Assembly: GCA_009760855.2 (NCBI GenBank)
Contig: WPIO01000111.1
Span: 806,001 to 870,000 of the forward strand
Direction of reading: 5' to 3'
Source of the DNA: Cristatella mucedo
Lineage: Eukaryota; Bryozoa; Phylactolaemata; Cristatellidae
Length of the DNA stretch: 64,000 nt
Position numbers and translations under genes: made by a program. This document shows, piece after piece, positions 19,100 through 58,494 of this stretch (positions are counted from its first letter, which is position 1; each line of letters begins with the position of its first letter). The notes below the pieces were generated by a model, which was not told where the DNA came from, did not search any database, and was given only the letters and a program-made list of their open reading frames with translations.

Positions 19100-20533
19100 A
19101 TGGATAGCAGCCTCCAGGAGATTCTCTTGATGTACTGCTCCGCCATTTTGACGATAATTATATTCATCCTACTATCGGCTTTTAAAGACGTCCTCAAGCA
19201 GAGATGGAGCGAGCTGAAAACTGCAGTAGCGACGATGAACGAGTAAGTATAGCAGAGGCACTGCTGCATCCTCAACCGAGCGAGCGCGTCGCATAAGGCG
19301 CGCCGCTCTCGCGCTCGCCCCTCCGCTCTCGCCCCTCCGCTCTCGCGCTCGCCCCTCCGCTCTCGCCCCTCCGCTCTCGCCCCTCCGCTCTCGCGCTCGC
19401 CCCTCCGCTCTCGCGCTCGACAAAATACGCTTACGATACCCTTCAGATTCGCCGACTACGAGCGGATGGTGGCCGAGTCGCGCGGAAGCCAGTCGGCTGC
19501 CGCAGGCGCCGCCGCCGACAAACGTGTCGGCGTCAAGTCGTCGGCTCCTGCCCATCCGGTCTTGTACGAGACGCCTCACATCGGGCCGGCCGCATTCGCT
19601 TCCGGGCAGTTCGCGTCGCTGCCGCTGCTGCTCGCGCTGGCCGACATGGTGTCGCCCACAGAGCTCCCGCCCGGCCGCCCGCTGACGACCGCCGCCGCCG
19701 CCCCCGAGCCGGACGTGCTGGCGTCGTACGCGTCGCCGCAGGGCATCCTGCACTCGGTACCCAACCTCGACCTGCCGCGCGTCGTCGCCGGCCGCGCGCC
19801 GGCGATCGAGCGAGCCGGCTCGTACTTGGGCGGCCTGACCCCCGCACAGTGGACGTCGTTCTTCTCGGCGGCCGCAGCCGCGGCCGCCGCGGCTGCAACC
19901 GCTCCCGCCTCCGCTGCCGGCGGCGCACATCGGCATGAGGCGGCGGAGTCGGACTCGCGAGCACTGCGAGCCGGCGAGACCACCACACGTGCGGCGCCTG
20001 AGAGCGAGCCCCACAAGCATTCCTACAGAGGCACCGCCGGGGAAGCAGTGGCCGTGGCCGGATCGAGCACGAGCGAGCCTCTGGCGGAGGAAGCGATCTC
20101 GCCGCCCAACATGGCGAGGACGCCCACGCTGTCCGACTTCGACGACGATGAAATGCGAAATTCACCTCGAGGAGTCCTGCATGAGACGCCTTCGCTCGAC
20201 TTCACGGACGCCGAGAATGACGCAGACGAGGGCGGTGACAGTGACCGCGTCGGCGGTGACTGCGGCGATGGCGTCGGCGACGTTGACGACGGCGGCGCCG
20301 GTGACCGCGAGAACGACAAAGGGCAGGCGACGCTGGAAGTGGATGATCAGGAGTGTGTATCTGCGGTTGTGCCCGACGCCGCCGATACGAAGCTCAGCCG
20401 GATTCCAGTTTTAAGCGGCAGCTCGCCGCTATCCTCGAGGATGCGGACGTTCGGCGGCGAACGGCTGCCGCCCACGCCCCCCAGCATGAAGCACGTTCGC
20501 TGGCCTAGGCGCACTCGGGAATTCGACGCGTAA
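19100..20533 (+). CDS. Family gene A: single-pass membrane protein with long disordered tail (2 exons)
   Basis: Model: exon 1 19,100-19,242, intron 19,243-19,446 (204 bp), exon 2 19,447-20,533, giving 409 residues. The ATG context is aaaacATGG. The donor is GA|GTAAGT and the acceptor CCCTTCAG|A, so the intron is phase 2 and the split codon is GAA (Glu48). Residues 8-27 (ILLMYCSAILTIIIFILLSA, from Ile8) form one membrane span followed by a basic helix (KDVLKQRWSELK), so by the positive-inside rule the tail should be cytoplasmic. The tail is Ala-rich (Ala run near 188-198) and has an acidic Asp/Gly block near 300-330. The motif GVLHETPSLD (290-299) recurs as GILHSVPNLD (147-156) and PVLYETPHIG (85-94). 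It ends with a basic segment, WPRRTREFDA. No catalytic domain is visible. Exon 1 is similar to that of gene D. Function unknown; the splice sites are predicted, not shown by transcripts. Confidence 0.72.
19243..19446 (+). repeat. Gene A intron with a GC-rich tandem repeat
   Basis: The 204-bp intron of gene A is largely made of a tandem array at about 19,302-19,420. Its units are GCTCTCGCCCCTCC and the variant with an extra GCGCTCGC. The pyrimidine-rich repeats run toward the acceptor at 19,446. Array length could vary between alleles without touching the coding sequence. Confidence 0.7.
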
Positions 20534-20747
20534 TGAAGAAATCGCGCCGCGGCAAGGCAGTGCGCGAGATGTGCTTCGATGTACGTGAGGAGATCACAAC
20601 AGAGTGCTATGAAATGAAGCTGTACTGCTTCATTATTTTTCCGGCGAATTTTATTATTTTTCCGGGGAATTTTTCCGGCGCTGAACGAAAAGAGCGAGAT
20701 GCGCTTTTTCAGACGCCCGGCTTCGAGCGTGCAGAAGGCTGCGGCGA

Positions 20748-21255
20748 TAAAGCAAAGGATACAGAGCAAAGTTCTTACGCTGACCCACAAGGCCCGCCAC
20801 GGCTTGGCTCCTTCATACCTAGCTGAACTGCTGCATCAGTTTCAGCCTGTTCGCGCCCTCAGGTCCTGTATGGACAATAAATTAGCTGTCCCATTCCTCC
20901 GCTTTAAGACAGTTGGCGACAGAAGCCTTAGCTCTGCAGGTCCTAGACTGTGGAACTTCCACAATTCTTACGCAACGACATCTACTCTCAACTGCCGACT
21001 ATGGCACATCTTTTTCAGCGGTCCTGAACTGCTACTTCTATGCTACTCACTACCTCAACTGCTCTCCTAACTCTGCTATGCTTGCAACTTTCTCTTTGTT
21101 GCGTGAGACGAAGTCTGTTGGGTACCGAATGCGTACCGAAAGCCGCTTAGGCTGTGAGTTCGCTATACAAAACTCGCCTGCGTAACACCCACATGGTCTT
21201 TATGACTTGTGGAGTTACTGACGGAGATACATTACATTACATTACGTTACAATAG
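20748..21255 (+). mobile_element. LINE-B copy just downstream of gene A
   Basis: It starts at AGCAAAGGATACAGAGCAAAG and ends in ACATTACATTACATTACGTT. The coding part has a deletion near 20,955 that breaks the frame. AATAAA at 20,876, within it, is the nearest canonical polyadenylation hexamer after the gene A stop. Confidence 0.82.
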
Positions 21256-21419
21256 TAGTTTTGGACGGGCGAGCGACCGGCGCGCACTTCCGGTAAGCGA
21301 ACTTGCTTCCTTTTTTGCCAGCTGTAGCTGACGAATAGGAAGAGTGCTCGTACTGTTCGCATACATAACTGCAAGACAATAGAAGCCTTACAGTTGCTGT
21401 AGTGGTAGCTTGATTTATG

Positions 21420-21552
21420 TCGAGCTGGTTTGGTCCAGTGGTTTGTTTACACGCCCCGACAAAAGTGTGGCTGGGGTCGTAGGCTCGGGCCCCGAGGCAT
21501 ATGCGAAGCGCCTGAATAAAGCTCTCTTGGGGCGCTATACAAATAAATCATA
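21420..21552 (+). mobile_element. SINE-A copy
   Basis: GAGCTGGTTTGGTCCAGTGG, then GTCGTAGGCTCGGGCCCCGAG, then GAAGCGCCTGAATAAAGCTC and GGGGCGCTATACAAATAAAT. Confidence 0.75.
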
Positions 21553-22046
21553 TATGTAATTATGTATTTACTGGTAGTTCTCGAATGTCGTCAACATTGG
21601 CCGACTAGCGCCGGTCACTGGCCGTCGCAGGTGGCTAATTGCATGGGCTAGAGGATGTTTAAACCTTTTCTCCAATGCTCAGCGGCACGCGCCAGCATCC
21701 GTTTAGCAGTAGCTTGAACCGCTCGTTAAATTCATTTCAGTAAACTACAAGAGCACGCAGTGCTCTAAACTGTGCAACTAAGAAAGCTTAGTGCAGTCGG
21801 CAACTGTCGCTAGACGGCCGTATACGGGACAGGGTCAGCACTATAACCCCCATCCCCCCCTCCCGCGAGGGCGTCCGATTGTCGTTTATTCGTTCCGTCT
21901 GCTTCCAATCCATTCGATGCGCCCCGATGAGCGATGCGTTTGCCGATCGCGCACGCACAGCAGACGAGTAGCCTCAAAATAAGTTACCAAAAAGAGCAGC
22001 TACACCGATCGCTAGCTGTATCTCCAAGACAGACAGCTCATTACCC

Positions 22047-22554
22047 ATGGCCACCGCCCCATCTCTCCTTTTGCGACTCGTCTCGGAGCAGGAATGCCAA
22101 GAGACCGATAGGTCAAGCGCGGCCGGCATCGACCGCGACTTGACGTTGGCGATCGTCGAGCGAAGCGAAGCGTGCGAGCTGTTTCGGAGAATGTACGGCC
22201 GTCAGCAGCCGTAGCTGCCTCCGTCCGATCGGTCTCGCTATGCCGCGGGAGAGCTGGACGTCTTGCTCGGAGCCGCCGAGGCGCGTTGCCTGTCGGCGGT
22301 CGTGCGTGCAAGACCCTAGCTACGCCTGCTCGGCCGTCGAGCGGTGGTGCGATCGTCGCGAGGACTTGAACAAATACATGGCGGTTCGTCGAAGCCAACA
22401 TGCAGCGGCTCGGCCTCTCTCTCCGCCAGCCGGCAGACTGTGCGCTCGAGCTGGCTGGCGTGCTAGCATCGGCCGATGCTGCTCACCCGGCGCGGCTCGC
22501 CAATCTCGTCGAGTCGATGAACGCGCGCGAATCAAACGCGATTGAGAGGAGCAG
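22047..22554 (+). pseudogene. Possible disrupted coding segment, unidentified
   Basis: From ATG 22,047 the frame reads to TAG at 22,212, including IDRDLTLAIVERSEACELF. The same frame continues beyond the stop (SRYAAGELDVLLGAAEARCL) to a second TAG at 22,317. The next frame has SYACSAVERWCDRREDLNKY, and the third runs from about 22,382 to TAA at 22,552-22,554 (RFVEANMQRLGLSLRQPADC, LANLVESMNARESNAIERS). Together about 165 residues of helix-like sequence. No family recognised. GC-rich sequence can mimic coding sequence, and an antisense frame is also open, so confidence is low. The (GA)n array follows directly. Confidence 0.3.
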
Positions 22555-22574
22555 GAGAAAATAATTAGAGAACG

Positions 22575-22810
<236 letters not shown>

Positions 22811-23281
22811 AGTTGCACGAGCGTCGCTCCAACATTATCCTATCTCCTTCACCCCCCCCCCGGTGTAGACCACGGGCGCCGACTCACTATGCACGTCCAT
22901 CGAGTGCCCTTTCCCCCAGCTCCGTCTTTCCGGTCTATCGCGCTCCAATTTTCGCTGGGAAGCCTCCGGCTGCCCAGAAAGCTGCCGCCGCCGCCGCTGA
23001 TTTACAGACAGCTAACCGCTAGCCCAGGCCTGGCCGGCTCGTCCAGCGTGGACTAGCCGGCTGGTCCGTCGCCTACTTAAATGCGTCCGCTGCGACCGAG
23101 TGCTGAGGATTTGTTAAAAGTCGCGGTCCGACGCCCGAAGAGGCCATCCCTACTCACAAGCCACCTGATTTGGGACCGATTAGGCGTGCCGTTTTGCCAG
23201 TCAGCTTGTCGCACGTGCTTGTCTAGCCGCGTCCGCCTATTCCGCGTCGCGTAAGGTGGCGGCGGTGCAGGCGAGTGAAAA

Positions 23282-23413
23282 TATGGCGGCCTCGCGCAGG
23301 AAAGCGAGTCCATTCGCCGTTCGGCGTCTGGCTAATGCCGCCAATCTGAAATCCTCAGTGGGGAGATCTTACGAGTCGGCTAGCAGCGTTTGCACCGCCA
23401 TTGATATTCCATA
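23282..23413 (+). CDS. Short open frame at the edge of a CpG-rich island
   Basis: ATG at 23,282 (GAAAATATGGCGG) opens a 43-codon frame beginning MAASRRKASPFAVRRLANAA and ending TAA at 23,411. It sits at the 3' edge of the GC-rich segment at 22.8-23.3 kb. It may be a first exon or a short peptide; no donor inside it is convincing. The minus strand also has a 78-codon ATG frame over 23,077-23,313. Confidence 0.22.
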
Positions 23414-23580
23414 AATCAATTGTCAAAAAATTCGAACGCAGGTGAAGACTAGCCGCGCTACCTTTGAGCAAGCGCAGCGCATTTGTGCGACGACTCGCTC
23501 CTGGAATCAAAGGTAAACTCCAGCTTAAGTAAAAAGGTAGAACTAACAGCAAAGCGCTGCTCAATGTAACCACCGAGTAT

Positions 23581-23720
23581 GCCTAGCTGGTTTGGCCCAG
23601 CGGTTAAGGTGCTCGCCCTGACCAAATTCAGGCTGAGGTTGTGGGCTCGAACCCCGAGGCACATGTGAAGCACCAAATTATGGATCAAGTTCTCTTAGGG
23701 CGCTATACAAACGAATTGTA
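23581..23720 (+). mobile_element. SINE-A copy, best preserved
   Basis: GCTGGTTTGGCCCAGCGGTT (box A region), GTTGTGGGCTCGAACCCCGAG (box B region), then a GTTCTCTTAGGGCGCTATAC tail that resembles the LINE-A 3' end. Confidence 0.8.
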
Positions 23721-25262: not shown

Positions 25263-25264
25263 TA

Positions 25265-25555: not shown

Positions 25556-25907
25556 ATATCGCGGTGACTACGCAAAAATAGCCGCCCGCCGCGATCCGCC
25601 GTCCATCAGCCGAGGGGTGCCGAAGCTCCGGCGCATCCAACGCTCCACTTCCGGTGCTCCGGTTCCGGTGCTCCGGTTCCGGTGTTCCGGTGTCAACTGC
25701 TACTGTAACCTGAGCCGAAGCAGTGGGTAACGCTCGCCGCGCGATCGTTGGCAAATGGAATCTCGAGGCTTCGCCATCGTACCACTGGATGCAGCGGCCA
25801 ATGGTTCTGTCGTCACAGCGTATTACGTCATATCCGGAAGCGAGGCCAGCTCCAGTTTCGGCGCCAGAATACCCGTACAGCCTGCCGCTGCTGGTGAGCG
25901 AGAGCCC

Positions 25908-26047
25908 ATGGCGACGTCCTTCGAGATAGCATTCTTGATGATTCTCTCGTCGGTGCTCACCGCAGCCTTCATAGCGCTCTGGCCTTACTTATACCACTTG
26001 ACGCTGCTCGACAGATCTGAGCTCGATAAAAAGTCGGACTGCGTTCG
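25908..26047 (+). CDS. Family gene B, exon 1: membrane anchor
   Basis: This exon encodes 46 residues plus two bases of a split Arg codon. The donor is CG|GTAAGT, phase 2. The start chosen at 25,908 (MATSFEIAF...) matches the short N-termini of genes A, D and E. An in-frame upstream ATG at 25,755 would add 51 residues that are Ala/Ser-rich and not hydrophobic. The span is about residues 7-30 (AFLMILSSVLTAAFIALWPY, from Ala8), followed by a charged stretch DRSELDKKSD. Upstream of the gene, 25,640-25,690 carries a short tandem repeat of GGTTCCGGTGCTCC type. It joins the exon at 27,849 across a 1.8-kb intron. The pairing rests on matching phase, the shared gene structure and strand. Confidence 0.62.
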
Positions 26048-26575: not shown

Positions 26576-26584
26576 TAACAATAA

Positions 26585-27848: not shown

Positions 27849-28311
27849 GCGTGCGAACGCTCGCCCCGAAGCGTGCTCGAGGAGGGCGACGGACGGCGGC
27901 GAACGGCGGACGCCGAGCGCACTTCCTCGCCTCTCTCAGCAGCCGATGCGCTCGACGCAAGGGCCGTCGAAATCCGCCGTCGCATTCGCATCGATCGCGG
28001 CCGAGAAGGCGGCGGCGAAGGCGAAAGCGGCGGCGGCGGCGAAGGCGGAAGCTTCGGCGCCGGCTGCTGCTCGCGCGCGCGCTCCGGCGCCAGAGTCGGC
28101 CGCCTCGCGAGCGGCCGCGGCAGCCCGCGCGCCGGCCGCGCGTGCTGCCGTGGCCGCCTCGGCGAGCGCGCGGCCCGCCCCGTTCAAGCTGCCTAGCGCG
28201 GCCGGACCGTGCGGCTTTCGACGTCGCACGGCCGAAGACGAGGCGCAAGCCCCGAGCCCCGCGTCGATGGAGCGTCTGCACAGGATCCTCAGCGTCGCCC
28301 GTGGCGGCGGC

Positions 28312-28347
<36 letters not shown>

Positions 28348-29199
28348 TGCGAGCGACCGGCCGCGTGCTGGGAGGAAAGGAATCGCGAGCGGCGAAGCCT
28401 CGCGAGCTTCCGGCGCGAGCTGGCCGCAGGCTCGCTCGCGGGCTTGGACCCAGAGTCGGTAGCGGCGTCGACCAAATGGCGGAGCTGCGTCCCCGCAGCT
28501 GCTCGAAGGGAACGCGTCAGCTCGCAGAGGCAGCACACGACGCAGCCTCCGCCGTTCCGGGCGCATCCGCCATTCGAGGGGGCCGAAGCTCGCGGCGGCA
28601 GCGGCGACGACGGCGAAGCCATCGCCGCCGCCGCACCTTCGGAGCTGCCGCGTCTGCCTGCGACGCCGCCGCCGCCGCCGCATGTTTGCTCGTCGAGCTC
28701 TCGCCCGCCGATCATCATCTGCGAGCCGTCGACGCCGCTCGAGAAGCCGACGGCGGCGCCGCCGGACGGCAGCCTGCCGCCGCCAGTGACGCATGCGCAA
28801 AACGCTGCGACCGATGCCGATCGACTGGCCGTGCCTACGTTTGGCGAAGCCCGTCGGCGCATGAGCGAGGCCGCTGCCAACGCCGCGGCGATGAGAGAAG
28901 CTAGCAATGACAGTCCGGAGCCCGTGTCCGTTGACCCCTCTCCGAAAGTGCAGCTGGTGCCGGCGGAGCAGCAGGTGCCGGCGGAGCAGCAGGTGCCGGC
29001 GGAGCAGCAGGTGCCGGCGGAGCAGCAGGTGCCGGCGGAGCAGCAGGTGCCGGCGGAGCAGCAGGTGCCGCCTAAACCGCCAGCGCCGCCGCCGCGGGCT
29101 CAGCCGCGGCGGCGTACCTTGACGCCAATCCACGCGCCCAGCATTTTCGGGCCCTATCGAACTAGGCAGCGTGACCCCGCGACGCACGGTCGCATTTGA
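27849..29199 (+). CDS. Family gene B, exon 2: long Ala/Gly/Pro-rich tail
   Basis: The acceptor is CGTTGCAG|G; the first base completes a CGG Arg codon, so the phase (2) and frame match exon 1. The joined protein has 496 residues. The tail, in order, has an Ala/Lys helix-like stretch (AAEKAAAKAKAAAAAKAEA), a further Ala/Arg/Pro region, SMERLHRILSVARG, a poly-Gly run (about residues 198-213), Pro-rich blocks, EPSTPLEKP, then six perfect copies of VPAEQQ (residues 417-452, 18-bp DNA units at 28,957-29,064), and a basic C-terminus. No enzyme domain is visible. The antisense frame is also open over nearly the whole exon, but that is a by-product of GC-rich codon use. A SINE-B copy ends about 100 bp before the acceptor. 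Function unknown. Confidence 0.62.
28957..29064 (+). repeat. Coding minisatellite in gene B (VPAEQQ x6)
   Basis: Six identical 18-bp units (GTGCCGGCGGAGCAGCAG) encode VPAEQQ. A degenerate seventh (VPPKPP) follows. Sequence identity between units implies recent expansion. Confidence 0.9.
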
Positions 29200-29302: not shown

Positions 29303-29959
29303 CGAGTCCTTTCGATTCGTTCTTTGTGCGCTCGTGCTCGCTGTTACGGAAGCATGATCAAATGGGTTGTGTTAGCGTGCACAGAGTGCCTAGAAAAAGT
29401 CGACGGGACTATACTGCTGTCATACAACCTATTCATACAACTCGCGTAAAGAAGTAGTCGGGTTCAGCTGGGCGCTTGCTTACTATCGGGTGCCACTGGA
29501 CTGCGAAATGGATGCTGCCGCGCACAGGCTGAGGACGAAATCGGATTCGATGCCCGAGGGCCCGCCCTACTGGAACCGCATCTCTCGACTGGCAGCATTA
29601 ATGGTGCGTGAAAATATAGATATATAGCTGCGTGAGACTGGGTGGAAGTTCGCAAATTATCCCGCGTTTACGCTGATTTCTTGACAAGTGTCATTGCAGC
29701 GGTGTTTTGGATGAATTCGGCCCAACAGGATATTTTCAAATTTCTTTTTAGTACGCGGCAGAAAAATGGCTGCTTCACAAGGACTGTCTTAGACGTAGAT
29801 GAATGGCGAAATGCAGCAGGGGCAGGGGCAATTTTGAGGATGGGGATTGAGGCATGGAGGAGGAAAAGGCAAGAGTCCAGCGGCAACGTTGCAGCGGGGG
29901 GGGGGGGGTGTTCCAGCGGGGGATGCTATAGCCGGGGATGTTACAGCGGGGAATGTTAC

Positions 29960-30459
29960 AGCTTGAGGAGGTTACAGCTTGAAGAGGTTACAGCTTGAAG
30001 AGGTTACAGCTTGAATAGGGTTACAGCTTGAAGAGGTTACAGCTTGAAGAGGTTACAGCTTGAAGAGGTTACAGCTTGAGGAGGTTACAGCTTGAGGAGG
30101 TTTCAGCTTGAGGAGGTTTCAGCTTGAGGAGGTTTCAGCTTGAGGATGTTACAACTTGAGGAGGTTACAGCTTGAAGAGGTTACAGCTTGAGGAGGTTAC
30201 AACTTGAGGAGGTTACAGCTTGAGGGGCTTACAGCTTGAAGAGATTACAGCTTGAGGAGGTTACAGCTTGAGGAGGCTTCAGCTTGAGGAGGTTTCAGCT
30301 TGAAGAGGTTACAGCTTGAGGAGATTACAGGTTGAAGAGGTTACAGCTTGAGGAGGTTACACCTTGAGGAGGTTACAGCTTGAGGGGGTTACAGCTTGAA
30401 GAGATTGCAGCTTGAAGAGGTTTCAGCTTGAGGAGGTTTCAGCTTGAGGAGGTTACAAC
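29960..30459. repeat. 16-bp minisatellite (GAGGTTACAGCTTGAA)
   Basis: About 31 tandem copies of GAGGTTACAGCTTGAA with variants (TTTCAGC, TTACAAC, GAGGAGG). A G10-11 run and related GGGGATGTTACAGC units precede it from 29,896. No coding frame is kept and no spacers are present. Confidence 0.9.
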
Positions 30460-34075: not shown

Positions 34076-34831
34076 ATCCTTCATTGCCGCGAGTCGGGCC
34101 GACTGCCGGCCCGACTTTATTACATATTCCGATTTTATTATTTATTCCGACTTTATTACATATTCCGATTGTATTACACATTCGATACATTTTCACGTGT
34201 CGATTGTTGACCATGGGAAAGGCGGCAGCTAGCCGTAAGCTTTGAAATGAAATTAATAAAAAAATATAAGCACGATAGCGTGAGCAGCATATCACACAGC
34301 ATCGGGTAGGAAGTCGGCAGCATTTTCGTCGCTGGCCAGGAAAAAAAAAAGTTGGAACTCGTGAATGCTACAGCAGAGCCACACACTCTACCTGCTGACT
34401 GTGTCTTTCTCAGCTGAGGCTATCTCAAAAATTACCGCGAACGAGTCTTTAGTCGGCGATTTTGCTTGAACTTGCCGGGTGGTTCGGGGATCGGTTAAAA
34501 CATCTCTTGCCTTTCGCCTAACGGCGATCGCTCGGCCACCGGCCGCTTGCCGCGCGACACACGACGCCGGGCTCGCGAAGCGCGCAGCAAACAAGCGAAC
34601 GCGTCGACTTCGGCCGATGCGGCGCCTCGAGCGCGCCAGGGAGCCGCGTGCGCCAATTGTCGACGCGCGCGGCATCGCGCGAGCTGCGACGCGCTCGATT
34701 CTTTCGCGCCGCCGCCGTCGCCGCCGTCGACTTTCGTCACCATCGCCGCTCGCGTTCGGTGCTATTTATTCAGTGACACTCAGCCTGACGCTCACGCAGA
34801 CGACATGGACATGTCGGCTCACGCAGACGAC

Positions 34832-35944
34832 ATGGACACGTCGAATTTACACTGGACTTTACAGACTTTACACAGGATGCTGTCGGCTGAGAATTTACAC
34901 TGGACGCTGCCTGGACTATTCTTGCTGGTCGCAGCTCCCGCGACGCTCGCATTAGTCGCGAGTCGCCTGCTGCGGACATGTTCGCCGAGCGCGAATGATC
35001 GGTACGTACGGTGTCGCATCGCTACGCTGCCTCGCGGCTCGCCTGCCCCCCCCCCCCCCCCCCGGCCGCCCGATTCCCCCGCCTCCCCCCTTCCACCTGA
35101 TTGGTCTGACGCTGTTGCTCTTCCCAGGCGCCAGTCGGCAGACGCTGACCGAGACGTCGCCGTTGCCTTGCGGCCGACGTCGCCGAATGCGAGACTGCCG
35201 CTGCTGCTCCGACGACGCGCTAGCGCTATCAAACGGTCGGCGGATCGTCGGCCGTCTGCTGCCACTGCCAGACAGAGGCCGGACCGCTCGCGCATCCGGC
35301 GTCTGTCTTTGCCCATTGGTCAGCTTTCCACGACCGCCGTCTCGGCGCGGCCGGCCGTCAGAGGAGCCGCCGACGCCGACGCCGCCGCAGCTGCCGGGGA
35401 CTTTGTGCGGCGAGTCGGCGCGAAGCCGGCAGCTGCTGCGATAGGCGGCCGCGATGCGACGGAAGCTCGCGACGACGTCCCGGTGACGCGCGGTAGCAGC
35501 GGCGGCAGAACCAGCAGCCGAGGCCCAAGTTGCGGCAGCTCGACTACGGACTGCCTTAGCGGCGGCGGTGACGGCCGCGTCAGCTGCGGCGGCAGCAACG
35601 GTCGAGGCAGCGCGCACGATTCGAGTTTGGCCGTCGCGAGACGGCGCCTCACGGTGGCCGTTTACCGGAACGAGGCTCCAAGCGTCGAGGCGCTCTGGGC
35701 CGCGGCGGCCGCCGGCGACGCTCGCCATCGAACGGCGGGCGTCGGAGGCGGCTGCGAGGAGAGCGGGCGAGCGGACGTCGGGCAGTGGACTGTCGCCGCT
35801 GCCGCTCCCGCCGCGGCGACTCGACCGCCGCACGCTGCCGTTCGCAGCACGTGGTCCGTCGCGAGCGAACCGCCGGCGAACGGCTACGCCGCGAGCTGGC
35901 GGCGCTACACCACCGACGACGCTCGCACGCGGCAATGGCGCTGA
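34832..35944 (+). CDS. Family gene C: putative single-pass membrane protein (2 exons)
   Basis: Model: exon 1 34,832-35,001, intron 35,002-35,127 (126 bp), exon 2 35,128-35,944, giving 328 residues. In-frame ATGs at 34,805 and 34,811 are alternatives; the start at 34,832 (MDTS...) resembles the MD starts of A and D. The donor is CG|GTACGT and the acceptor CTCTTCCCAG|G, phase 2, with Arg as split codon. Exon 1 contains NLHWTL twice, 19 residues apart, then a membrane segment at about 27-47 (PGLFLLVAAPATLALVASRL, from Pro27). The tail is Arg/Ala/Ser-rich, with VYRNEAPSVEAL as a possible variant of the gene A motif, and ends in WRRYTTDDARTRQWR. The intron length is a multiple of three and has no stop, so the unspliced frame stays open and adds a Pro-rich insert. 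A possible ATTAAA polyadenylation signal lies at 36,285. This is the most diverged of genes A to D. Confidence 0.55.
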   Translation: MDTSNLHWTLQTLHRMLSAENLHWTLPGLFLLVAAPATLALVASRLLRTCSPSANDRYVRCRIATLPRGSPAPPPPPRPPDSPASPLPPDWSDAVALPRRQSADADRDVAVALRPTSPNARLPLLLRRRASAIKRSADRRPSAATARQRPDRSRIRRLSLPIGQLSTTAVSARPAVRGAADADAAAAAGDFVRRVGAKPAAAAIGGRDATEARDDVPVTRGSSGGRTSSRGPSCGSSTTDCLSGGGDGRVSCGGSNGRGSAHDSSLAVARRRLTVAVYRNEAPSVEALWAAAAAGDARHRTAGVGGGCEESGRADVGQWTVAAAAPAAATRPPHAAVRSTWSVASEPPANGYAASWRRYTTDDARTRQWR

Positions 35945-41455: not shown

Positions 41456-41462
41456 TCTAGTG

Positions 41463-41653
41463 CAGCGGTTCTCAATCTGTGTGTCGCGATCCCTTTGGGA
41501 ATCGAAAGACCCGGTTCACAAGGTTCACATAAGACCATCGAAAAACGCTCATTTCCACATTTCGCACACACAAAAATTTTATGGTTGGGGGTAGCCACAA
41601 CATGACCAACTGTATTTAAAGGATCGCGGCATCAGGAAGGTTAAGAACCGCTG
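41463..41653 (+). mobile_element. SPIN-like hAT MITE upstream of gene D
   Basis: This 191-bp element starts CAGCGGTTCTCAA and ends TTAAGAACCGCTG, so its terminal inverted repeats pair. Flanks are CTCTAGTG and CTCTAGGT, an imperfect 8-bp duplication around TCTAG, the site type favoured by Charlie-like hAT elements. The interior (AAGACCATCG, TTTTATGGTTGGGGGT, CCACAACATGA, AAAGGATCGCGGCATCAGGA) resembles, from memory, the SPIN/URR1 non-autonomous hAT family. It has no coding capacity. Confidence 0.8.
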
Positions 41654-41835
41654 CTCTAGGTGCTCAGCGGGCTGCGGCGGAGGCGGAGGCGGCGGCGGCG
41701 GCGGCGGAGGACGAGCGCGTGCCAGAACAAGCCGTCGCGTCGTCGTCGCCGCGTCGTGCCACGTCACACGCATTGTTCGTCCGGCTGCTCGCGAGGCCGA
41801 GCCAGCAAACCCGCACTCGGATGGGAGACCGCGAC

Positions 41836-43886
41836 ATGGACGGCACCATAGAATTCATACTGCTTTTATACTGCGCCATAGTGCTGACGGTTGTGCACTT
41901 TGCCGCCGCGAGGAAGGCCTTCGGCGACGCGTGGCGCCGGAAGAAGAGAGAGCTCGTGCGACGAGCGCAACTTTTTCTAGTCGAGTCAGTACGCGCTCTC
42001 TCCGCTCGCGCCGCCGCCGCCGCCGCTGCCGCGGAGGCTGCGGCGGCCGCCGGCGCTCGTGGCGAGCTCGCGTGCGCGAGCGCTCGTGCACACGCCCCCG
42101 TCGTTCTCTCTGCAGATGCGCGGGCCAGACTGCCGACGCAGCTCGTCGACGTCTCAAAGGCGGTGCACGAGCGTGCGGCTGTTGCGGCGATGGCGACTTC
42201 GACGGCGATGGCGAAGGCGTGGACCCGCTCGATCGGGTCGTGCGGATGTTGGGCGGGCGGAGCGGCCTGCCGGGTCAGACGCGTGTCGACGGACGACGCA
42301 AGGTCGAGGCCACCGGACGGGGAGCCGACGCCGCCGACGGCGCCAACTCGTCGGCTGCGGCGTCCGTCGCCTCCGACTGGCGCAGCCAAGACGTCGACGA
42401 GAGCCTCGACGCCGACTTAAAAAGCGGCGGCGGCGGCGGCTCCTCAGATGGTCCTCCTACGTGGGCGTCGAAGTCGCCGCACGAGTCGGAGGCGAGGAAC
42501 GACGACGACGACGACAGCGAAGCTGGCGCCGAGAACGAAGACTCTTCGCTCAACTCGTCGCGCGACGCGAGCTGCCTTCGCTGCGACAGCAGCGAGTGGG
42601 TCGACGGTGACACGAGCTACTTCAACGAATCGCTGTCGCCGAGGTCAGACGATCGGCGGCCGCGGCCGCCGCCACCGCCGAGCGTCGAGCCGAAGCAGCC
42701 GAAGCTCCGATCGTCGCGACTTCCGGTGGCCGTGGGCGGCCTGCGCTCCGCCGCAGCCGCGTCGTGCAGGCTCAAATTGGGTTCGCCGTCAAAGTCTTCG
42801 GCCGCGTACGAAAACGGCTCTTCGTTGGCAAGTAGCGGCGGCGGCGGCGGCGGAAGCCGCCTCCCGGTGCTGCCACCGACCGCGTGGTGCGTGCCGGCGA
42901 GCGGTAATCAGGCGGCGCTACGATCCTACGACGATCGCAGCACAAGTCGGAGCGGCGGCGGCGGCCGCGTGAGCGGCGTTAGCGGCCACGCGCTAAACAC
43001 AACGTTCGACCTGTCGAGTCCTACCGTCGATTTCCGCGCCAGCTTGGCGCGCTTTCACAGCAGCACGCCCATGGAGCGCTCGTCGGACCGGAAGGCGACA
43101 GGCGGCGAGAGCTTAGCGTGCCTGCACAGCATCACGCCCATTGACCACTTGTCCAAGCAGAAGCCGCCAGGCGGCGCGAGCGGCGGCGTCGGCGCGAGCG
43201 GCGGCGTCGGCGCGAGCGGCGGCGTCGGCGCGAGCGGCGGCGTCGGCGCGAGCTGCGGCTCGTGCGGCGGCGTCGGCGCGAGCTGCGGCTCGTGCGGCGG
43301 CGGCGTCGGCGCGAGCGGCGGCGTCGGCGCGAGCGGCGGCGTCGGCGCGAGCTGCGGCTCGTGCGGCGGCGTCGGCGCGAGCTGCGGCTCGTGCGGCGGC
43401 GTCGGCGCGAGCTGCGGCTCGTGCGGCGGCGTCGGCGCGAGCTGCGGCTCGTGCGGCGGCGTCGGCGCGAGCTGCGGCTCGTGCGGCGGCGTCGGCGCGA
43501 GCTGCGGCTCGTGCGGCGGCGTCGGCGCGAGCTGCGGCTCGTGCGGCGGCGGTGGCTCGAGCCGCCGCCGCGGTGGTGCCACGACGGACGTCGGATTGCC
43601 GAACTCGGCGGCCGCCTCCGAGCGCAGCTTTCCGAAGCTGCGCTTCGACGACAGCTGCTCGAGCGAGCGGCCGATATTCAACACCAGCGTGGAAAAGTCC
43701 AGCCCCGCCGCCGCCGCCGCCGCGGTTCAGACCAAGTCCAACGGGCGACCGTTGAGCAGCCAGCGCCGACGCTGGCAACTGATGGCCGAGCCGGCGGAGC
43801 AGCGAGGCAGTGCGGCTGCTATTACGGCGGCCACGGCGTCTCCGTGCGGCAATGCGCTGTTCAAGACGGCGATGAAGGAGCTCTGA
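41836..43886 (+). CDS. Family gene D: single-pass membrane protein with Gly/Ser/Cys repeat tail (2 exons)
   Basis: Model: exon 1 41,836-41,984, intron 41,985-42,115 (131 bp), exon 2 42,116-43,886, giving 639 residues. An in-frame ATG at 41,821 would add five residues. The donor is GA|GTCAGT and the acceptor CTCTCTGCAG|A, so the split codon is GAA, as in gene A. Exon 1 matches gene A closely ([26 protein letters not shown]), followed by the basic run [10 protein letters not shown]. The tail has an acidic Asp/Glu block, Pro/Ser-rich parts, the paired motifs [12 protein letters not shown] (360-371) and [12 protein letters not shown] (383-394), and a large Gly/Ala/Ser/Cys array (about 400-530) encoded by 18-bp and 30-bp units. 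It ends [11 protein letters not shown]. An ATTAAA signal is at 43,999. A SPIN-like element ends 182 bp before the ATG. Function unknown. Confidence 0.72.
43166..43552 (+). repeat. Coding minisatellite in gene D
   Basis: The in-frame tandem array has two unit types. An 18-bp unit encodes GASGGV and a 30-bp unit encodes [10 protein letters not shown]. The 30-bp unit is repeated almost perfectly in the 3' half. The array keeps frame throughout, as expected for a translated repeat. Confidence 0.85.
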
Positions 43887-48239: not shown

Positions 48240-50280
48240 ATATCCGGTTAAAGAACAGCGTTTAATTTGGCTTCACTAAAAATAATGTAACAGCCGATCG
48301 TTGATGGGCTCTACGCTCAGAACCAATAAGTCGAGAGTTGGGCTCTGCTCCTCCTCAATCGCACGATCGCTCTTGTACGTCATGGGTTGTGCTGCTAGAC
48401 ACTTGCATTCTTCCGTGGCTTCCTGATAGAATGCCATAAGGTATTTGTGTAGAATTTGTCATAATATATGCAGTTTCTGGAAGCTGCATTCGAAAAGACA
48501 GAGCAAAATAGCTATTTTATTTTACCAGGAAATCAAAGGGTGCTACTGGGTGCCCAGACCTTGTGCTCTGCCTATAGATCTATACTAGACAGCAGTTAAT
48601 TGCATACTACATAATAATGCATACAGTACTCAATGAGTGCAGTGCCTTGATTAGCAAGTCCAACTACGTGCTCCAGCTGAATTAGTACACACACATAACG
48701 TGCATTTGCTTTCGCCAATGCAGTTTCCATGGCAGCGGCAGCAGCGATATATTTGTTCCTTTGCGACCAGAAAGTTTCGAGCTTGGCGTCGGAGACTGAT
48801 TGGAATAGGTAAGAGACAGTCAATCCGCTGCATGGCTGCTTAACACGGCTCACGTAGGTCGAATAGCTCGAGTGCGAGTTTTTATATTTTTTATATAAAA
48901 AATAAAAAATTATAAATATATATATATATCCATATATATATAATATATAATATATATAATATATAATAATACTATAATAATATATAAATATAAATATAAA
49001 AATAGCTCTAATAGCTCGAGTGCGGTGCTCAAAAGTGGTTGCATGCATCGCTGTTACTTCAAAACAGCATTTGAAAGTAGGCCTTTGGATCGAGTGCCTT
49101 TTACACAACGGTCTACCTATGTTATGCTCCGTTAGCTGGGCTCGTAGCCCGCGTGATCATATTTGTTTAGTTCTATTAAAGAAAGGCTTTTTCTCTGGCC
49201 GCCGAGTGAAGATGTCTTGCTAGATGAAGATCTTTCTTTAGTCACCAATGCGATTTGTTCTGAGTTCAAAAATATCTGACGCCGAAGGCCTCTTCAGGCT
49301 ATTTCCAAACGGATGTGCCCGTACATGCAGCAATAGTGTGCGCAGTCACGACGACAAACCGTTTGTTTTCTAAGCATTAAGACCGTGATCGAGACGTGTC
49401 GGTCGTAGCAGGAAAAGTGTTAAGCTGCAATGCTACGGCGGCTACGGTGGCATTGCAACGGCCACGATAGCAGCCTGAACGGATACTACGAAACGACAGG
49501 ACCACCGTCTGCGAAGACTGCTAATAGATGGTTCTCCTCCTTGAGTGGAGACAGGTCTCCGATGCACACTCAAATGGTGGCGAAGGCGTAGTCTTGATTT
49601 CGTTGCACATATATGGCGAGTGACAATGATTTCCAGTGCCTGTAAGCCCAGAGAGATCAGGCCCTACCAAATGCAAATTACACTAACCTGAATCTGAACA
49701 TTCTCATTCTCAGAAGCTGCGACTCTTACTATACACAAGCCTGGCTGCGGAATTTCATGACTTAATTAAAATCATTTAGTTAATTTACTACTTATTACAC
49801 GGAAGACAGAGATGGAGCAATTCATGTCAAGCTACAGATTAATTTATAAGGAGAAGTTACGATCTCGTCACGCGGAACATCCGACGCTACTGGTATCTGA
49901 GCTGTACTAAAACATTTACTTAGCAATCTAGGACATCAGAGTAAGATCCGTTATTGACTTAAATTTGACTGTGAGCCGAACCGACTAACTTTGCTATAGC
50001 ATTTATCTGCGGCAAAGACTTTTCAAAGTTTAATCTCGTTAACAAATATTCGTTGATAAATAGTTTGGAAATCGTGGGTTTGAAACTTACTGAAGCATCT
50101 TAGGAATGAAATCCACAGTTTAAGTAAAGTGTAACCAGAATCAATGATTATATAAGATCATTAAAGAGGATTCACACTGACAAATATCTATATGAATAGT
50201 AAACTACTTTAATGAAAACCCTGTAAGCCATCATTAAACGCAAACATTTCCTTTATTTCATTGTTTCTTTTGCTGCAAAA
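48240..50280. other. No firm gene
   Basis: A/T-rich sequence with the low-complexity tract at 48,890. A 170-codon minus frame at 48,596-49,108 is mostly Ile/Tyr from that tract. Confidence 0.5.
48890..49010. repeat. A/T-rich low-complexity tract
   Basis: TATA, AATA and ATAA units, able to fold on themselves. Confidence 0.85.
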
Positions 50281-51690: not shown

Positions 51691-51719
51691 CGCTTTATCA
51701 ACTGTATTATTATTATAAC

Positions 51720-52600
51720 TAACAGAAATCACGTATCTTGACTATGTATAAAGTGCATGTTTTGCTGATTTTAACATGAACGGTCAACAAATTGGAACAA
51801 ACATCGATTTTTAAATTATCGTTCACAAGAAAAATGCAAAAAACAAGGTGAAACTCTCTTTACATGTTTGAGAGGCCAAGCCGTTTGATCTGGATAGTGA
51901 CTACTAGATAAAATACTTGCCTGGCTTTGAGCGCCAGTCGTGCTTGCATTATTCCTCGTTAAAACTGATTAGTTTAGCAAAGAAAGACTTCTATTTGGAG
52001 AGCAAAGTGATTCTTGTTCCTACACCGGCAGTGCAGCCATTCTCCTTGCAAATATTTTGGGCGTGCGGCATTGGAAATAGCTCACTTAGATATTAAGAGG
52101 CGGAAAGTGATTTGATGGATATTAGTGTACTCAACTCCGGCGGTAATCTCATAAAGAGCTTGAGCAGCACTCGTTGGCCGTAAGCTCGCAGATAATTCTT
52201 TCCCTACGGCGTGTGCCTGGACTGAAAACGGAAGTGCGACAACTAAAAAATATAGACCTCAGGGTAGACCTAGCCAATCTGCTTTCATACATTTTTCCTT
52301 CTACATAATTTACATAATTTCATAGTCAACATGTTTGAATATGCGTTCGAGGCCGTCTTGTCAGAAGCTGCTACGCTCGCGTTTTCTTTGACTCAGGGAT
52401 AAATCCAGCGGCGGAAGTAAATATGCAGCGAGCCCAATTTTCAGTACTAACAAAGCAGACAGGGAAAAATTTCTTGCAGCATAGTATGCTGACTATTCGT
52501 TTCAAATCTATTGCCCGTCGGCGACTTGCATTGTGACGTCAGCGGCTCAGAGCGGCATCACTTTGCTCCAACCTCGTCGAAGGCGGGCAAGCAAAGAACA
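51720..52600. other. Upstream region of gene E, no element recognised
   Basis: Unique-looking, moderately A/T-rich. No TATA box or GC box stands out. Confidence 0.45.
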
Positions 52601-52621
52601 GGAGCAATAGCTAAATTACAA

Positions 52622-52755
52622 ATGGCCCATTCCGAGCACGATGTAATGTTGGCCGTGACACTGATATCCATGGCAATAAATTTCATAGTATTAGTACTCG
52701 TCAGCACTCTCGTGTGCACGCGGTGGAAACCGGGGTCTGCTAAACGGATGCCGAG
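52622..52755 (+). CDS. Family gene E, exon 1: membrane anchor
   Basis: This exon encodes 44 residues plus two bases of a split Arg codon. The start is CAAATGG, with no in-frame ATG upstream in the open frame. The donor is CCGAG|GTGAGT, read as AG|GTGAGT, phase 2, as in genes A-D. Residues 1-8 are hydrophilic, about 9-32 hydrophobic (VMLAVTLISMAINFIVLVLV, from Val8, is the core), then RWKPGSAKR is basic, the same layout as A and D. The only suitable GC-rich second exon downstream with matching phase starts at 57,849, which implies an intron of about 5.1 kb holding a LINE-B copy, a minisatellite, a SINE and a hairpin. The exon itself is convincing; its partner is inferred. Confidence 0.58.
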
Positions 52756-53432: not shown

Positions 53433-53754
53433 GTTAGACGACATTCCAGGGAGTGCCGGTTAGAAGAGATTCGAGGGAGTGCCGGTTAGAAGAGATTCGA
53501 GGGAGTACTGGTTAGAAGAGATTCCAGGGAGTACCGGTTAGAAGAGATTCCAGGGAGTACTGGTTAGAAGAGATTCCAGGGAGTACTGGTTAGAAGAGAT
53601 TCCAGGGAGTACCGGTTAGACGAGATTCCAGGGATTACTGGTTAGAAGAGATTCCAGGGAGTACCGGTTAGAAGAGATTCCAGGGAGTATAGGTTAGAAG
53701 AGATTCCAGGGAGTACTCGTTAGACGAGATTTCAGGGAGTGCCGGTTAGAAGAG
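53433..53754. repeat. 26-bp minisatellite in the gene E intron
   Basis: About 12 copies of GTTAGAAGAGATTCCAGGGAGTACCG with point variants (CTGG for CCGG, GACGAG for GAAGAG). Confidence 0.9.
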
Positions 53755-54619
53755 CGCCTGGTTGGCAGATGCTCGAAATAACGAACGGATTCTGCATGCA
53801 AGGCACGCTGAAGCGCATACTGGATATTGAAACGCCCACTCTGAGAAGAGGATTACTTAAACAAAATACTGGAGGTCATACGAATCATCAGTGTAGCTGG
53901 GCATGCTGCCGTGCGGACGATGGATTACTCCGAGCATCTGTAACTTTTTATGGGCTGGACTGAGAGCCAGAGATTTTTAATTCTCGACAGGAATCGAGAA
54001 AAGCTTTGTCAAGAGAGGTGCGAGTGAATATGGCTAGCCCGCCTTTCAACCGGTACGAATTTAGTTGAACCACGTTTTACATCTATAAAATGAGAGCTAC
54101 TCGTTCTATTCAAGCGATATTGGGACTGCACGTGTACGTCATTAAATTACAGCCAGTAAGCTATCGCCATAATTCTCCAGCACGTTGGAGGGTTAGCAGG
54201 CTAAATATTGCGTTCACGTTTACGCATGGAATACATCTGCCAAATGTACGGAGCACCATTATGAGTAAAAGTGTGTCTAGAGACAAACGCAAAATTGCTT
54301 CCTCGGGTGAAAAATAATAACCAAAAAGCCTGCTTAGCTTCTTAAAGTTTTCCTGATGAGATAGCATTGGATACCTGTTTTTAAGCATAATTAAATTTTT
54401 CACGACAGACGTTAGTTTCTCTTTGGGTGCCATACAAAAGTTTTGTTATCAGTATGAATGATAGTCACTCTTCTCCAGATCACGTGATCTTGGAAAATGG
54501 ATTTATACATTGGTCTCCTCTTTTGTGGTGATTTCTAGGACTTGTGCAGTTTGGCGATAGAAATTGCCCGTTTTTCTCCTGCTATGTTTAAGTAAGTGAC
54601 ATCACCATAATGTATCTAT

Positions 54620-55610
54620 AATGCATCTCCTTCTGTAACTCCACAAAGTCATAAAGACCATGTGGGTGTTACGCAGGAGAGTTTCGTATAGTGCACTCAC
54701 AGCCTAAGCGGCTTTCGGTAAGCATTCGGTACTCAACAGACTTCGTTTCACGCAACAAAGAAAAAGTGGGAAGCATAGCAGAGTCAGGAGAGCAGTTGAG
54801 GTAGTGAGTAGTATGGAAGTAGCAGCTCAGGACCGCTGAAACGGATGAGCCATAGTCGGCAGTGGGAGAGTAGTTGTCGTTGCGTAAGAATTGTGGAAGC
54901 GAGTTGCACAGTCTTGGACCTGCGGAGCAAAAGCTTTTGTCGCCAACGGTCTTTAAGCGGAGGAAAGGAACAGCTAATTTATTGTCCACACAGGACCTGA
55001 GGGCGCGAACAGGCTGAAACTGATGCAGCAGTTCAGCTAGGTACGAAGGAGCCAAGCCGTGGCGGGCTTTGTGGGTCAGCGTAAGAACTTTGCTCTGTAT
55101 CCGTTGCTCAACCGGCATCCATCCTAGCTCTTTTAGCAATGGAGGCACGTGCTCAAACTGCTGGGACTTGAAGACTAGCCTTGCAGCCATATTCATAGTC
55201 CGCTGCAGTGACCTTATAACTTTCTTTGGCAGCCCAGCCAAAAGGGAATTACAATAATCAAGCCGAGACAGAACTAAAGAGCTAGTTAAATTTTTTACAA
55301 GCAACTGTGGGAAACAGCTCCTAATCTTGGATAGGGATCGGATGTGATGGCTAGCTGTAGAAGCAGACTTCTGAATGAAGCTTTTGAAATTGAGGCAACT
55401 GTCGAGAACGACACCTAAATTTCGAGCCCGTGGTGCTGGTCGCACAATAGCATCACCTATTAGAAGAGCAAAGCCTTTTAATCCAGCCACACGCTTAGGG
55501 TGTCCAATAAACAGCAGCTCGCTTTTATCATCATTTAATTTCAGGAAGTTTTCCGACACCCAGGATCGAATATCGGCAAGTCAAGAATTCAGTTTCTCAG
55601 TTGCCGCGGC
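54620..55610 (-). mobile_element. LINE-B copy (L2/CR1-like), longest in the window
   Basis: The minus-strand open frame from about 55,580 to 54,669 encodes [78 protein letters not shown] and ends CTIRNSPA. This is the thumb and C-terminal region of an L2-like reverse transcriptase; the palm with the catalytic Asp residues is missing. It lies in the predicted long intron of gene E. The 296-codon frame is uninterrupted, so the insertion may be fairly recent. Confidence 0.85.
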
Positions 55611-55619
55611 AGATTCCGA

Positions 55620-56690
55620 CGGTTTGAATGACAAATTGGACAGATCGTGCCGATATAAAACAAATAGCTTTGATCTCATACTTTCCTGTTTATTCACAGG
55701 ATCGTGCATATTCTTTAACTTTTTACAATCCTCTAGCTCATCTCATCTGGCCAAAGACTCTCCGAGTAATTAGAAAGCAATCAACAGTGCGAGCATTTTT
55801 ACATTAACCGGACACAATCGTGGCTCACGGGCATCTAGAATGTGGCATGGTGCGGCAGCTTAAAGAAATCCCGTGATGTGCCACATCTCACCCCCAACCT
55901 TCCAACGGACCGGGAGTCTAATATGCACTTCCGAATTTCTGGTGTGCGCTTACATCCTCATTGCAAGAAATCAGCCAAAATGTTCTATACGGGGCTTTAG
56001 TAAGTAATAGGTAGAAGCAAACAACGATAGCCTCTTTAAGTTTGCGAGGTCATTCTGCTCAGTGAATACCGAAATGCACCTCAGCACGCACGATTCCACG
56101 CTCACCACACATTCCGGATTAAACGGGATCCACGTCCGCAAAAAAGCTATTTTATGCAATATCTAGGAACTGATAAAAAGTAGGCGCGATTCCTGGCGCT
56201 CTGCCAAGGACAAGAGCTATCGCTATACCTAAGTATTGAAATGGCGATGTACTAGATCAGTCAGATGCTGACTGCTGAAATGCGATTCGTGCTTTCTGAG
56301 TTATTGTGAGGAGGAACAGGTCTACTCAGTATCCTCGGTTGTAACGAGCGCCAAGTAAAATACAGGCAAGATAATATTCGGATGCGCTCAAGTTGATTAA
56401 AATAGCACCTTCATTATTAAAATTAAACATTAGATTGTGCGTGTAAAAATGAAATAGTAGCCGCATTTTTCTTCGCGCTATTAATAAGGTTGACGAAAAC
56501 GTTCACATGCCGTATTAAAATAGAAATAACTGCTTTAATGATAATTTAAAAAGTTTAATGATGATTTAACAAAAAACGCGGTGCGCGAACATTTTCCGAA
56601 ACTTTTTAATTACTTTATAAACTTCAATTACAAGTATATTATATAAACACATAATTGTAAAAATAATAAATAATATATATATATAATTAT
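55620..56690. other. Gene E intron sequence, no feature seen
   Basis: A/T-rich, frames under 65 codons, ending in a TA-rich run just before the hairpin. Confidence 0.5.
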
Positions 56691-56692
56691 AG

Positions 56693-56791
56693 CGCGCTTC
56701 GAGCTGCCGAAGCAATCGGAGAGTCGTTGTGCTCCTCGCAATGCGTGGGGAGCGGCACGACTCTCCGATTGCATCGGCAATTCAAAGCGCG
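56693..56791 (+). ncRNA. MicroRNA-precursor-like hairpin candidate
   Basis: Two arms of about 43 nt (56,693-56,735 and 56,749-56,791) pair around a 13-nt loop. The central part GCAATCGGAGAGTCGTT pairs fully (16-17 bp) with AACGACTCTCCGATTGC-type sequence in the 3' arm. Only single mismatches, one double mismatch and two G-U pairs are seen in the rest. Size and near-perfect stem resemble a pre-miRNA, but a small inverted-repeat transposon is an alternative. It lies in the predicted intron of gene E, on the + strand if transcribed with it. I do not recognise the mature sequence. Confidence 0.45.
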
Positions 56792-57311
56792 AAGCGGGCG
56801 CTCACGCGTACGCTTTCACGGACAGCAAGCTGGGCGAAAAGGACGTGCTGCCGTAAATTAAGAGCCACTCCTACACTGAAAAGAGCGCGGCGATGCATCT
56901 CTACGAGCTGCCGCGGTTTGCAAATACTGAATTCAGTTTTTGAATTTACTCTTTTTAATTTGAAGAGCTTTTAGGAAAAACGAAATGCCCCCTCAGCTCC
57001 TTGCAGCAGAAGAGCTTGGCACTTTGCCTGTCTGTTGGCTCCGTGAGCGGCTGTAATGCCACACCCAATGTCCGAGCTCGTGCCTTGCGACCGGACATCC
57101 AGCGACCCAGCCGCCCGCTCTCGCGGCCGCCGTGAGGTCAGGTGACAAGGACCCGCAATCAATCGAGAGTGCTGGCCAAAGTCCGACTCGGAGGCGGTGG
57201 CGGCAGCCGGCGGTCTAATCGTCTGCCCTTTGACTCTAGCTGCAAAAATCCTGCGCAAGGCCGAAACATCCCCCACCGTGCCGAAAAGTACACGCGCAAG
57301 CGAACCATCAA

Positions 57312-57450
57312 TGGCGGGCTGCTCCAGCGGTTAAGGTGCTCGCCCCGACTTAGGTCTGGCTGAGGTCGTGGGCCCGAGCCCCGAGGCATATATGAAGCGC
57401 CTGAATAAAGATTTAGTTCTCTTGGGGCGCTATGCACAAATGAATTACAT
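57312..57450 (+). mobile_element. SINE-A copy in the gene E intron
   Basis: CTGCTCCAGCGGTTAAGGTG, GTCGTGGGCCCGAGCCCCGAG, then GAAGCGCCTGAATAAAGATTT and TTGGGGCGCTATGCACAAAT. Confidence 0.75.
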
Positions 57451-57848
57451 TTATATATATTATATATATAATGGCAACGACATCCGCGGCGGCCGACGCA
57501 TCGGCTCCTCTATCCGGACCGCCCCGCCCACCCTTTTTAACCGAGGGCGGACTTTTCCAGGCAGCAGCTGCAGCAGCTGCATCCGGCCGCTGGCTCGCGC
57601 GGCTCCTCCGGCGGCTGCTCGTTCTCTCTCTTCCGGCGTCGCATGCTTCTGGCGTCGCATGCTTCCGGCGAAGGGATTGGTCGCCGCACGCGTCGCTGCG
57701 GCAGCGCGGTCAGTCGGGTCGCGAGCGAGCGAGCGATCAGGGCACGATTCGCGGCTTTCCCGCGCCGCCGCCGATCGGAACCCCGCGCCGCCAAGGTCGC
57801 CGTCGCCGAGGTCACCGTCCCGCCTCCTCCGCTCTCGATCGCTTGCAG

Positions 57849-58494
57849 GCGGCTGAGCGGCTCGCTTCGCAGCGTGGAGGAGCAAGCGGTCATCGCTTCG
57901 GCCGCATCGCCCGACCTGTGTCGACAGCGTTTCCGCCGAGCGGAGCAGCAGGAGCAGCAGAAGCAGCAGCACCGCCACCGAGGCTTCCAGCAGCAGCTTC
58001 CGGCGCAGGTCGCAGGCAGCAGCGCTCGCTGTGCCGGCCGCGTGTCGACGCCTTACCCGCGCCGCAGCGGCGCCTTACGCTGCGGCGTCACTGGCGGCGG
58101 CGGCGGCGACGGGCTGCAGACGGCGGCTCGCTGCTGGTGCTCTGAAGGTCAAGTACGCGACGACGGCCGAGCGGCCGATCTTCGGCCGTCGAAGCTTTTC
58201 TCGCTGACGCTCGAACCCCAGCAGCCGCCGCCGCTGCCGCCTCCGTCGCAGCAGCAGTCGAAAGAATCGAGTCGCGGCAGCGCCGGGTCGAGGTTCGACT
58301 GGGTCACTCCACCCTCGACGTTCGCCAGCTTTGTCGCCGACTGGGCGCGGCGGGCGTCGTCGGCGACGGTGCACGCGCCGCTGACGAGCACGCCGCTGCC
58401 TCTCAGCGGCGGAGAACGCGAGCTGGAATGCCCTTGGAACCGCCCGTCTGTCGCCGCTCGTTTCGCACGACAGTCGCAAAGAGCCGAACTGTAG
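57849..58494 (+). CDS. Family gene E, exon 2: Gln/Pro/Arg-rich tail
   Basis: The acceptor GCTTGCAG|G follows a pyrimidine-rich tract; the first base completes an AGG Arg codon from exon 1, and the open frame runs to TAG at 58,492-58,494. The joined protein would have 259 residues. The tail begins RLSGSLRSVEEQAV, then has a Gln-rich run (EQQEQQKQQ), a Pro-rich segment (EPQQPPPLPPPS) and APLTSTPLPLSG, which recalls the TP motifs of the other tails. A second acceptor at 57,560 (TTTTCCAG) is in the same phase and frame and would add 96 residues, so the exon start is uncertain. AATAAA at 58,612 is a plausible polyadenylation signal. No known domain seen. Confidence 0.55.

Follow-up and report, generated by a model that had tools for sequence, protein, structure and literature searches.

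The stretch of Cristatella mucedo DNA analysed here (contig WPIO01000111.1, positions 806,001 to 870,000; 64,000 nucleotides, called the window, in whose numbering all positions are given) carries five two-exon loci, named A to E, on the + strand between 19.1 and 58.5 kb. In each of them, a first exon of 44–65 codons encoding a hydrophobic segment is followed by a GT–AG intron in phase 2 and by a second exon that encodes the tail of the predicted protein, so that exon plan and intron phase are common to all five (5/5). The gene calls are probably right, E being the weakest of them.

All ten exons lie on the + strand. Exon 1 of gene A (19100..19242; 47 codons) contains its hydrophobic segment at 19121–19177 and ends at a phase-2 GTAAGT donor; exon 2 (19447..20533) encodes an Ala/Ser/Pro-rich tail up to the stop, with an SRIP sequence at 20396–20407, and the spliced product has 409 residues. 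Gene B is predicted to encode 496 residues from exon 1 (25908..26047; 46 codons; donor GTAAGT; hydrophobic segment 25926–25982) and exon 2 (27849..29199), the latter including an in-frame 18-bp array (VPAEQQ) at 28950–29070. An in-frame ATG lies upstream of it at 25755 (25755–25907) and would lengthen the protein by 51 residues; the sites resembling a cyclic AMP (cAMP) response element (CRE) described below sit 3’ of that ATG. Gene C comprises exon 1 (34805..35001; donor GTACGT; hydrophobic segment 34916–34972) and an open frame in exon 2 (35128..35944), giving a product of 337 residues. Gene D, the longest at 644 residues, has an exon 1 homologous to that of A (41821..41984; 54 codons; donor GTCAGT; hydrophobic segment 41854–41910) and an exon 2 (42116..43886) with in-frame arrays of 69 bp (43041–43181) and 30 bp (43190–43562); the motif scan also places SRLP sites on the + strand at 42714–42725, in a basic stretch, and at 42855–42866. 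Gene E (259 residues) consists of exon 1 (52622..52755; 44 codons; donor GTGAGT; hydrophobic segment 52646–52702) and exon 2 (57849..58494), the weakest exon junction of the five, across a predicted intron of 5093 bp. A minisatellite (26 bp x 12) occupies 53433–53754 within this intron.

An earlier note on this DNA had proposed five + strand two-exon loci at these places, each with a phase-2 intron, a single hydrophobic segment in the first exon and a first exon of 44–56 codons. The exon coordinates and intron phases agree with it, as do the best 19-residue Kyte–Doolittle means of the first exons (2.71, 2.34, 2.06, 2.47 and 2.67 for A to E). The proposed exon length holds for A, B, D and E; the first exon of C has 65 codons from its first ATG and falls in that range, at 56 codons, only if translation starts at the third ATG (34832).

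To what extent such structures arise by chance was gauged with a scan of both strands of the whole window for an ATG, a hydrophobic stretch starting no more than 40 residues in and, within 80 codons, a donor close to consensus, criteria set only after the genes had been seen. Unmasked, the scan gave 9 matches on the + strand and 8 on the – strand, most of the extras falling in simple repeats. Once 1445 bases of simple repeat had been masked, the + strand returned exactly A–E, all in phase 2, and the – strand returned three matches. By comparison, 60 dinucleotide shuffles made in 1-kb blocks and scanned on the + strand yielded a mean of 0.28 matches at a hydrophobicity of at least 2.06 (maximum 2), and 0.08 in phase 2 (maximum 1). 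The three matches on the real – strand lie at 9118 (phase 1) and 56774 (AT-rich, phase 2), both at 2.06 or above, and at 49048, below that level; the presence of two at this level indicates that the shuffles set the background too low. The first of them (9118–9013, – strand) combines an ATG, a hydrophobic stretch and a phase-1 GTGAGT donor (MPSGIERPRGDAHLRVIVVMCFAGTVAAGVGVATY) and is a possible first exon of another gene.

The second exons were examined in the same way, with 2000 dinucleotide shuffles each. The chance of an open frame is 0.002 for A, 0.0075 for B, 0.015 for C, 0.0005 for D and 0.10 for E, and openness is thus beyond chance in four of the five genes (A–D; nominal p 0.015 or less). 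Furthermore, the array periods in the predicted coding DNA are all multiples of three (27 in C, partly in the leader; 24, 3 and 18 in B; 69, 30 and 18 in D); periods elsewhere in the window are mixed, including 16, 20, 26, 34 and 46 but also 18, 21, 30 and 48.

Our comparison of the first exons reveals homology between A and D. Their alignment spans 39 codons with 15 identities (15/39) and reaches a Smith–Waterman score of 72, against a mean of 26.8 in local shuffles and with 0 of 2000 shuffles as high, bearing out the direct alignment that had been claimed; tblastn gives an E-value of 1.7e-5 unfiltered and 1.2e-4 once SEG and composition correction are applied. The proportion of synonymous differences between them (pS) is 0.77, near saturation, and that of replacement differences (pN) is 0.45 (Fisher p ~0.004 on rounded counts). 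This excess of pS over pN, which points to constraint on the protein, is the sole selection evidence for the loci. The earlier note had taken synonymous and replacement change at equal rates as a sign against the genes, and between the paralogues A and D, the only comparison to which this applies, the two rates differ in the direction expected of a protein. The similarity of the A and B first exons is marginal (p 0.04 with local and 0.07 with full shuffling), and a profile built from A and D ranks B fifth among 1076 open reading frames (ORFs), with an E-value of 1.3. C and E are tied to the others by plan, phase and upstream site only. Among the tails, none of the ten pairs is convincingly alike by Smith–Waterman comparison (best C–D, p 0.02), and ungapped comparison over 6 and 8 residues gave p values of 0.13 or more throughout 20 tests, in line with the fast divergence that had been claimed. 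Descent from one ancestor is shown for A and D only; for all five it is probable, B, C and E being putative members. An L2 fragment that ends ~0.59–0.74 kb 5’ of A, B and C was considered as a trace of segmental duplication of the flanks and set aside, because L2 pieces are common in the window (15 longer than 60 bp, query included).

The predicted proteins also agree in their layout. Judged by hydropathy only, the tails hold no second hydrophobic segment, the highest tail value being 1.44. The residues N-terminal of the helix are acidic in all five (charge –1 to –4), and the 20 residues that follow it carry net charges of +2, –1, 0, +7 and +6 in A to E. The charges favour a topology in which the N-terminus is outside and the tail cytosolic, clearly for D and E and less so for A, B and C; the signal-anchor arrangement with a cytoplasmic tail that had been put forward is accordingly supported on the N-terminal side in 5/5 and on the C-terminal side, where the charge is positive, only in A, D and E. 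By TOP-IDP composition the tails are disorder-prone in 5/5, which supports the disordered tails of the earlier account. AlphaFold2 modelling of A exon 2 as a single sequence gave a mean predicted local distance difference test score (pLDDT) of 43 with no residue at 70 or above, a weak sign of disorder since single-sequence input often scores low.

A shared upstream element, which the earlier account had omitted and which is new here, further links the loci. CGTCAC or its complement occurs within 200 bp 5’ of the ATG in 5/5 genes and is the sole 6-mer common to all of them at that distance. It is a CREB/CREM half-site, with a background frequency of 6.2% among 1882 windows of GC content 0.45–0.66; the upstream stretches of C and D exceed this range, and GC was therefore matched gene by gene in random sets. 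Among 3000 such sets, 249 shared some 6-mer and 7 shared one as rare as CGTCAC. Genes A and B carry two CRE-like sites each, GTGACGT at 18941 and CGTCAC at 18963 in A (18941..18968), and CGTCAC at 25811 and TTACGTCA at 25823 in B (25811..25830). The corresponding sites are CGTCAC in C (34735..34740), ACGTCAC in D (41761..41767) and GTGACGTCA in E (52533..52541), the last of which includes the full palindromic CRE TGACGTCA. The shared CGTCAC suggests co-regulation of A–E. CREB and CREM accept TGACGTCA or half-sites, and their target promoters in haploid germ cells resemble those of A–E in having a half-CRE, CGTCA, close 5’ (PMC3091680); it is on this likeness that a guess of germ-cell expression is based.

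Our searches returned no described family of this form, in keeping with the earlier note, which knew of none. Pfam gave no family at E≤10 for the spliced products of A, B, C and E, and none at E≤1 for A exon 2 or for the D exon 2 frame with adjoining sequence. A search of PDB sequences with A gave no match. In the protein database, no relative of full-length A was found among 7995 scored candidates and none of A residues 1–62 among 17 (the query A alone). This database does cover eukaryotes, fish entries having been returned for an L2 query, but the negative has to be read with the possibly thin coverage of near kin of the source organism, the top two relatives of the window’s L2 query being unnamed metagenome proteins. 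No relative of A exon 2 was found in a viral contig collection. Searches of the open-licence PubMed Central literature aimed at such a family or at SPATA31 listed none, and what they did list was unrelated, judged by title and the opening of the abstract. The SPEM and SPATA31 families of mammalian spermatids, both represented in Pfam, have a single N-terminal hydrophobic segment, a long low-complexity tail and fast evolution, and SPATA31 has undergone lineage amplification. The five proteins are like them in these features, and differ from them in the lack of Pfam matches given above.

Taken together, these observations make it probable, in our judgement, that A–E are a tandem gene group, young and confined to one lineage, whose signal-anchored products have disordered tails in the cytosol and whose expression is CRE-driven; at least two of the genes (A and D), and probably all five, are paralogues. 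One uncleaved N-terminal helix would insert each protein co-translationally, leaving an acidic end of 6–37 residues outside, in the lumen, and a disordered tail of 214–589 residues facing the cytosol. The first exon may behave as a conserved module of anchor and phase-2 splice, with tails that drift and grow by in-frame repeats. A CRE-binding basic leucine zipper factor of the CREB/CREM/ATF type would activate all the genes jointly, most probably in a single cell type, for which post-meiotic male germ cells (spermatids) are the leading guess, and the tails could serve there as membrane-tethered scaffolds with short linear motifs. In a bolder version, which we think unlikely, A–E would be an undescribed animal-lineage-specific family that keeps only the exon for the anchor, its phase-2 splice and the CRE promoter and gives each copy its own unrelated, repeat-expanding disordered tail. 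Such a tandem system would supply ever-changing cytosolic scaffolds to a single membrane in a single cell type, probably that of the spermatid, and one or more of its copies would link this membrane to growing microtubules.

Fast-evolving single-pass proteins are already known to form orphan tandem families. A–E would be a new such family, whose unusual trait, if it holds, is the retention of module, phase and promoter site alongside tails that share nothing detectable. If the five are one family, duplication would keep a short anchor module, a splice phase and a promoter as the rest of the protein is left free to change until it is unrecognisable; families of this sort would escape profile searches, and their common promoter would offer a second route to them. 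Fast-evolving, membrane-anchored disordered proteins are viewed as a recurring product of male germ-line evolution, and testis expression of A–E would make them a further case of their repeated origin.

Several points weigh against this explanation. The gene calls are predictions from sequence, the scan criteria and the CRE idea both arose after the sequence had been read, and the openness of E exon 2 is ordinary. The 20-residue stretch that follows the helix has no net charge in C and a negative one in B, and charge–hydropathy analysis favours disorder in E alone, the other four tails falling on the folded side of the line, with those of B and C close to it. At 250 bp, two further and commoner 6-mers (GCGAGC and CGAGCG) are also common to all five genes. 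The CRE-like sites of A–E are predicted, and half-sites of this kind serve somatic cAMP and stress genes as well as CREM/CREB targets in germ cells, which makes the germ-cell guess a weak one; the site itself fits regulation by cAMP or stress in somatic cells just as well.

More radical is the alternative that some or all loci encode no protein and are GC-rich islands in which open frames and hydrophobic exons arose by chance. Stops are scarce in high-GC DNA, one antisense frame is likewise open in each of B exon 2 and C exon 2, and A has no detected homologue; the shuffle controls for the scan and for the second exons, the protein-level constraint between A and D and the divisibility of the exon array periods by three speak against it, and we regard it as highly improbable. 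A narrower alternative accepts the genes and disputes the family: only A and D, perhaps with B, would be paralogues, and C and E unrelated neighbours with a chance hydrophobic first exon. The tandem duplicated family of five claimed in the earlier note does hold for A and D and marginally for A and B, but the other eight of the ten first-exon pairs lie at background similarity, the tails are unalike, and the exons of E stand 5.1 kb apart. This alternative has to be set against the identical strand, two-exon plan and intron phase of all five, the masked + strand scan, which yields no further such match, and the upstream CGTCAC common to the five, and it appears to us rather unlikely.

A third possibility is a specific form of the tandem-group explanation and does not exclude it: at least D would be a STIM1-like microtubule plus-end tracker, its tail binding end-binding (EB) proteins through an SxIP-type motif. 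STIM1 has a luminal calcium-sensing part. The outside end of A–E, at 6–37 residues, is too short for such a part, and A–E lack Pfam matches. In other respects D, and more weakly A, would be like STIM1, a plus-end tracker of the endoplasmic reticulum membrane (PMC7090928), in being single-pass with a cytosolic tail that holds an SxIP-type motif. A membrane-bound, dimerised construct whose SxIP lies in a basic, disordered region remodels membranes with EB3 in vitro (PMC7090928). The tail of D has SRLP at residues 255 and 302, and that of A has SRIP at residue 365. The five tails together contain 8 copies of [ST]x[IL]P, where 500 shuffles average 2.2 and never reach 8, and 3 copies of [ST][RK][IL]P, where the shuffles average 0.3 (p 0.008). 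However, these are among 15 patterns tried, of which all the over-represented ones, including TP[ILMV] (5 against 1.1, p 0.004), STP and two others, were picked after viewing, and C is without any [ST]x[IL]P. Moreover, the surrounding net charge is +9 at D residue 255, only +1 at the second SRLP and –2 around the SRIP of A. Only the first of these sites therefore qualifies as an SxIP-type motif in a basic disordered stretch, and an EB-binding motif with basic context is not beyond chance because 596 of 5000 shuffles reach that number. We treat EB binding by the D tail as a lead rather than a result, and the plus-end tracker reading seems to us improbable.

The repeats between the GC-rich islands are L2-like, CR1-like or tRNA-derived, and a hAT-like miniature element is present there in two copies, a content that most likely marks the window as nuclear and animal. 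The window’s L2 long interspersed nuclear element (LINE) has 2817 relatives, and among the best 120 of these the top two (88% and 70% identity) are unnamed metagenome proteins and those with a named organism are all fish (43–48% identity); its comparison with viral and genome contig collections gave no relative. A Pfam search with two LINE frames and a frame near 62 kb gave one weak match, DUF2919 on a LINE frame (E 0.064, below the cut-off). A further Pfam scan at E≤0.01 covered 49 frames hand-picked from 157 ORFs of at least 100 residues, a few of which overlap exons of A–E in a different frame; both scans included the 62-kb frame. The marginal matches to Transformer (E 0.0011) and TM250 (E 0.0017), in one ORF each, were taken for low-complexity matches. 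Rfam at gathering scores and a tRNA scan found nothing in the window. The two element copies, of ~190 bp with inverted ends and in opposite orientation, lie at ~121–304 and 41462–41656, the second ending ~165 bp 5’ of gene D, and we take them to resemble SPIN-type hAT miniature elements. A minisatellite (16 bp x 31) occupies 29955–30457, 3’ of gene B. At 61988–62846 on the + strand, where the frame from 62120 has no Pfam match, coding-looking pieces in at least two frames, a stop at 62117–62119 and a 20-bp duplication at 62355 give the region the look of a decayed or fragmentary gene.

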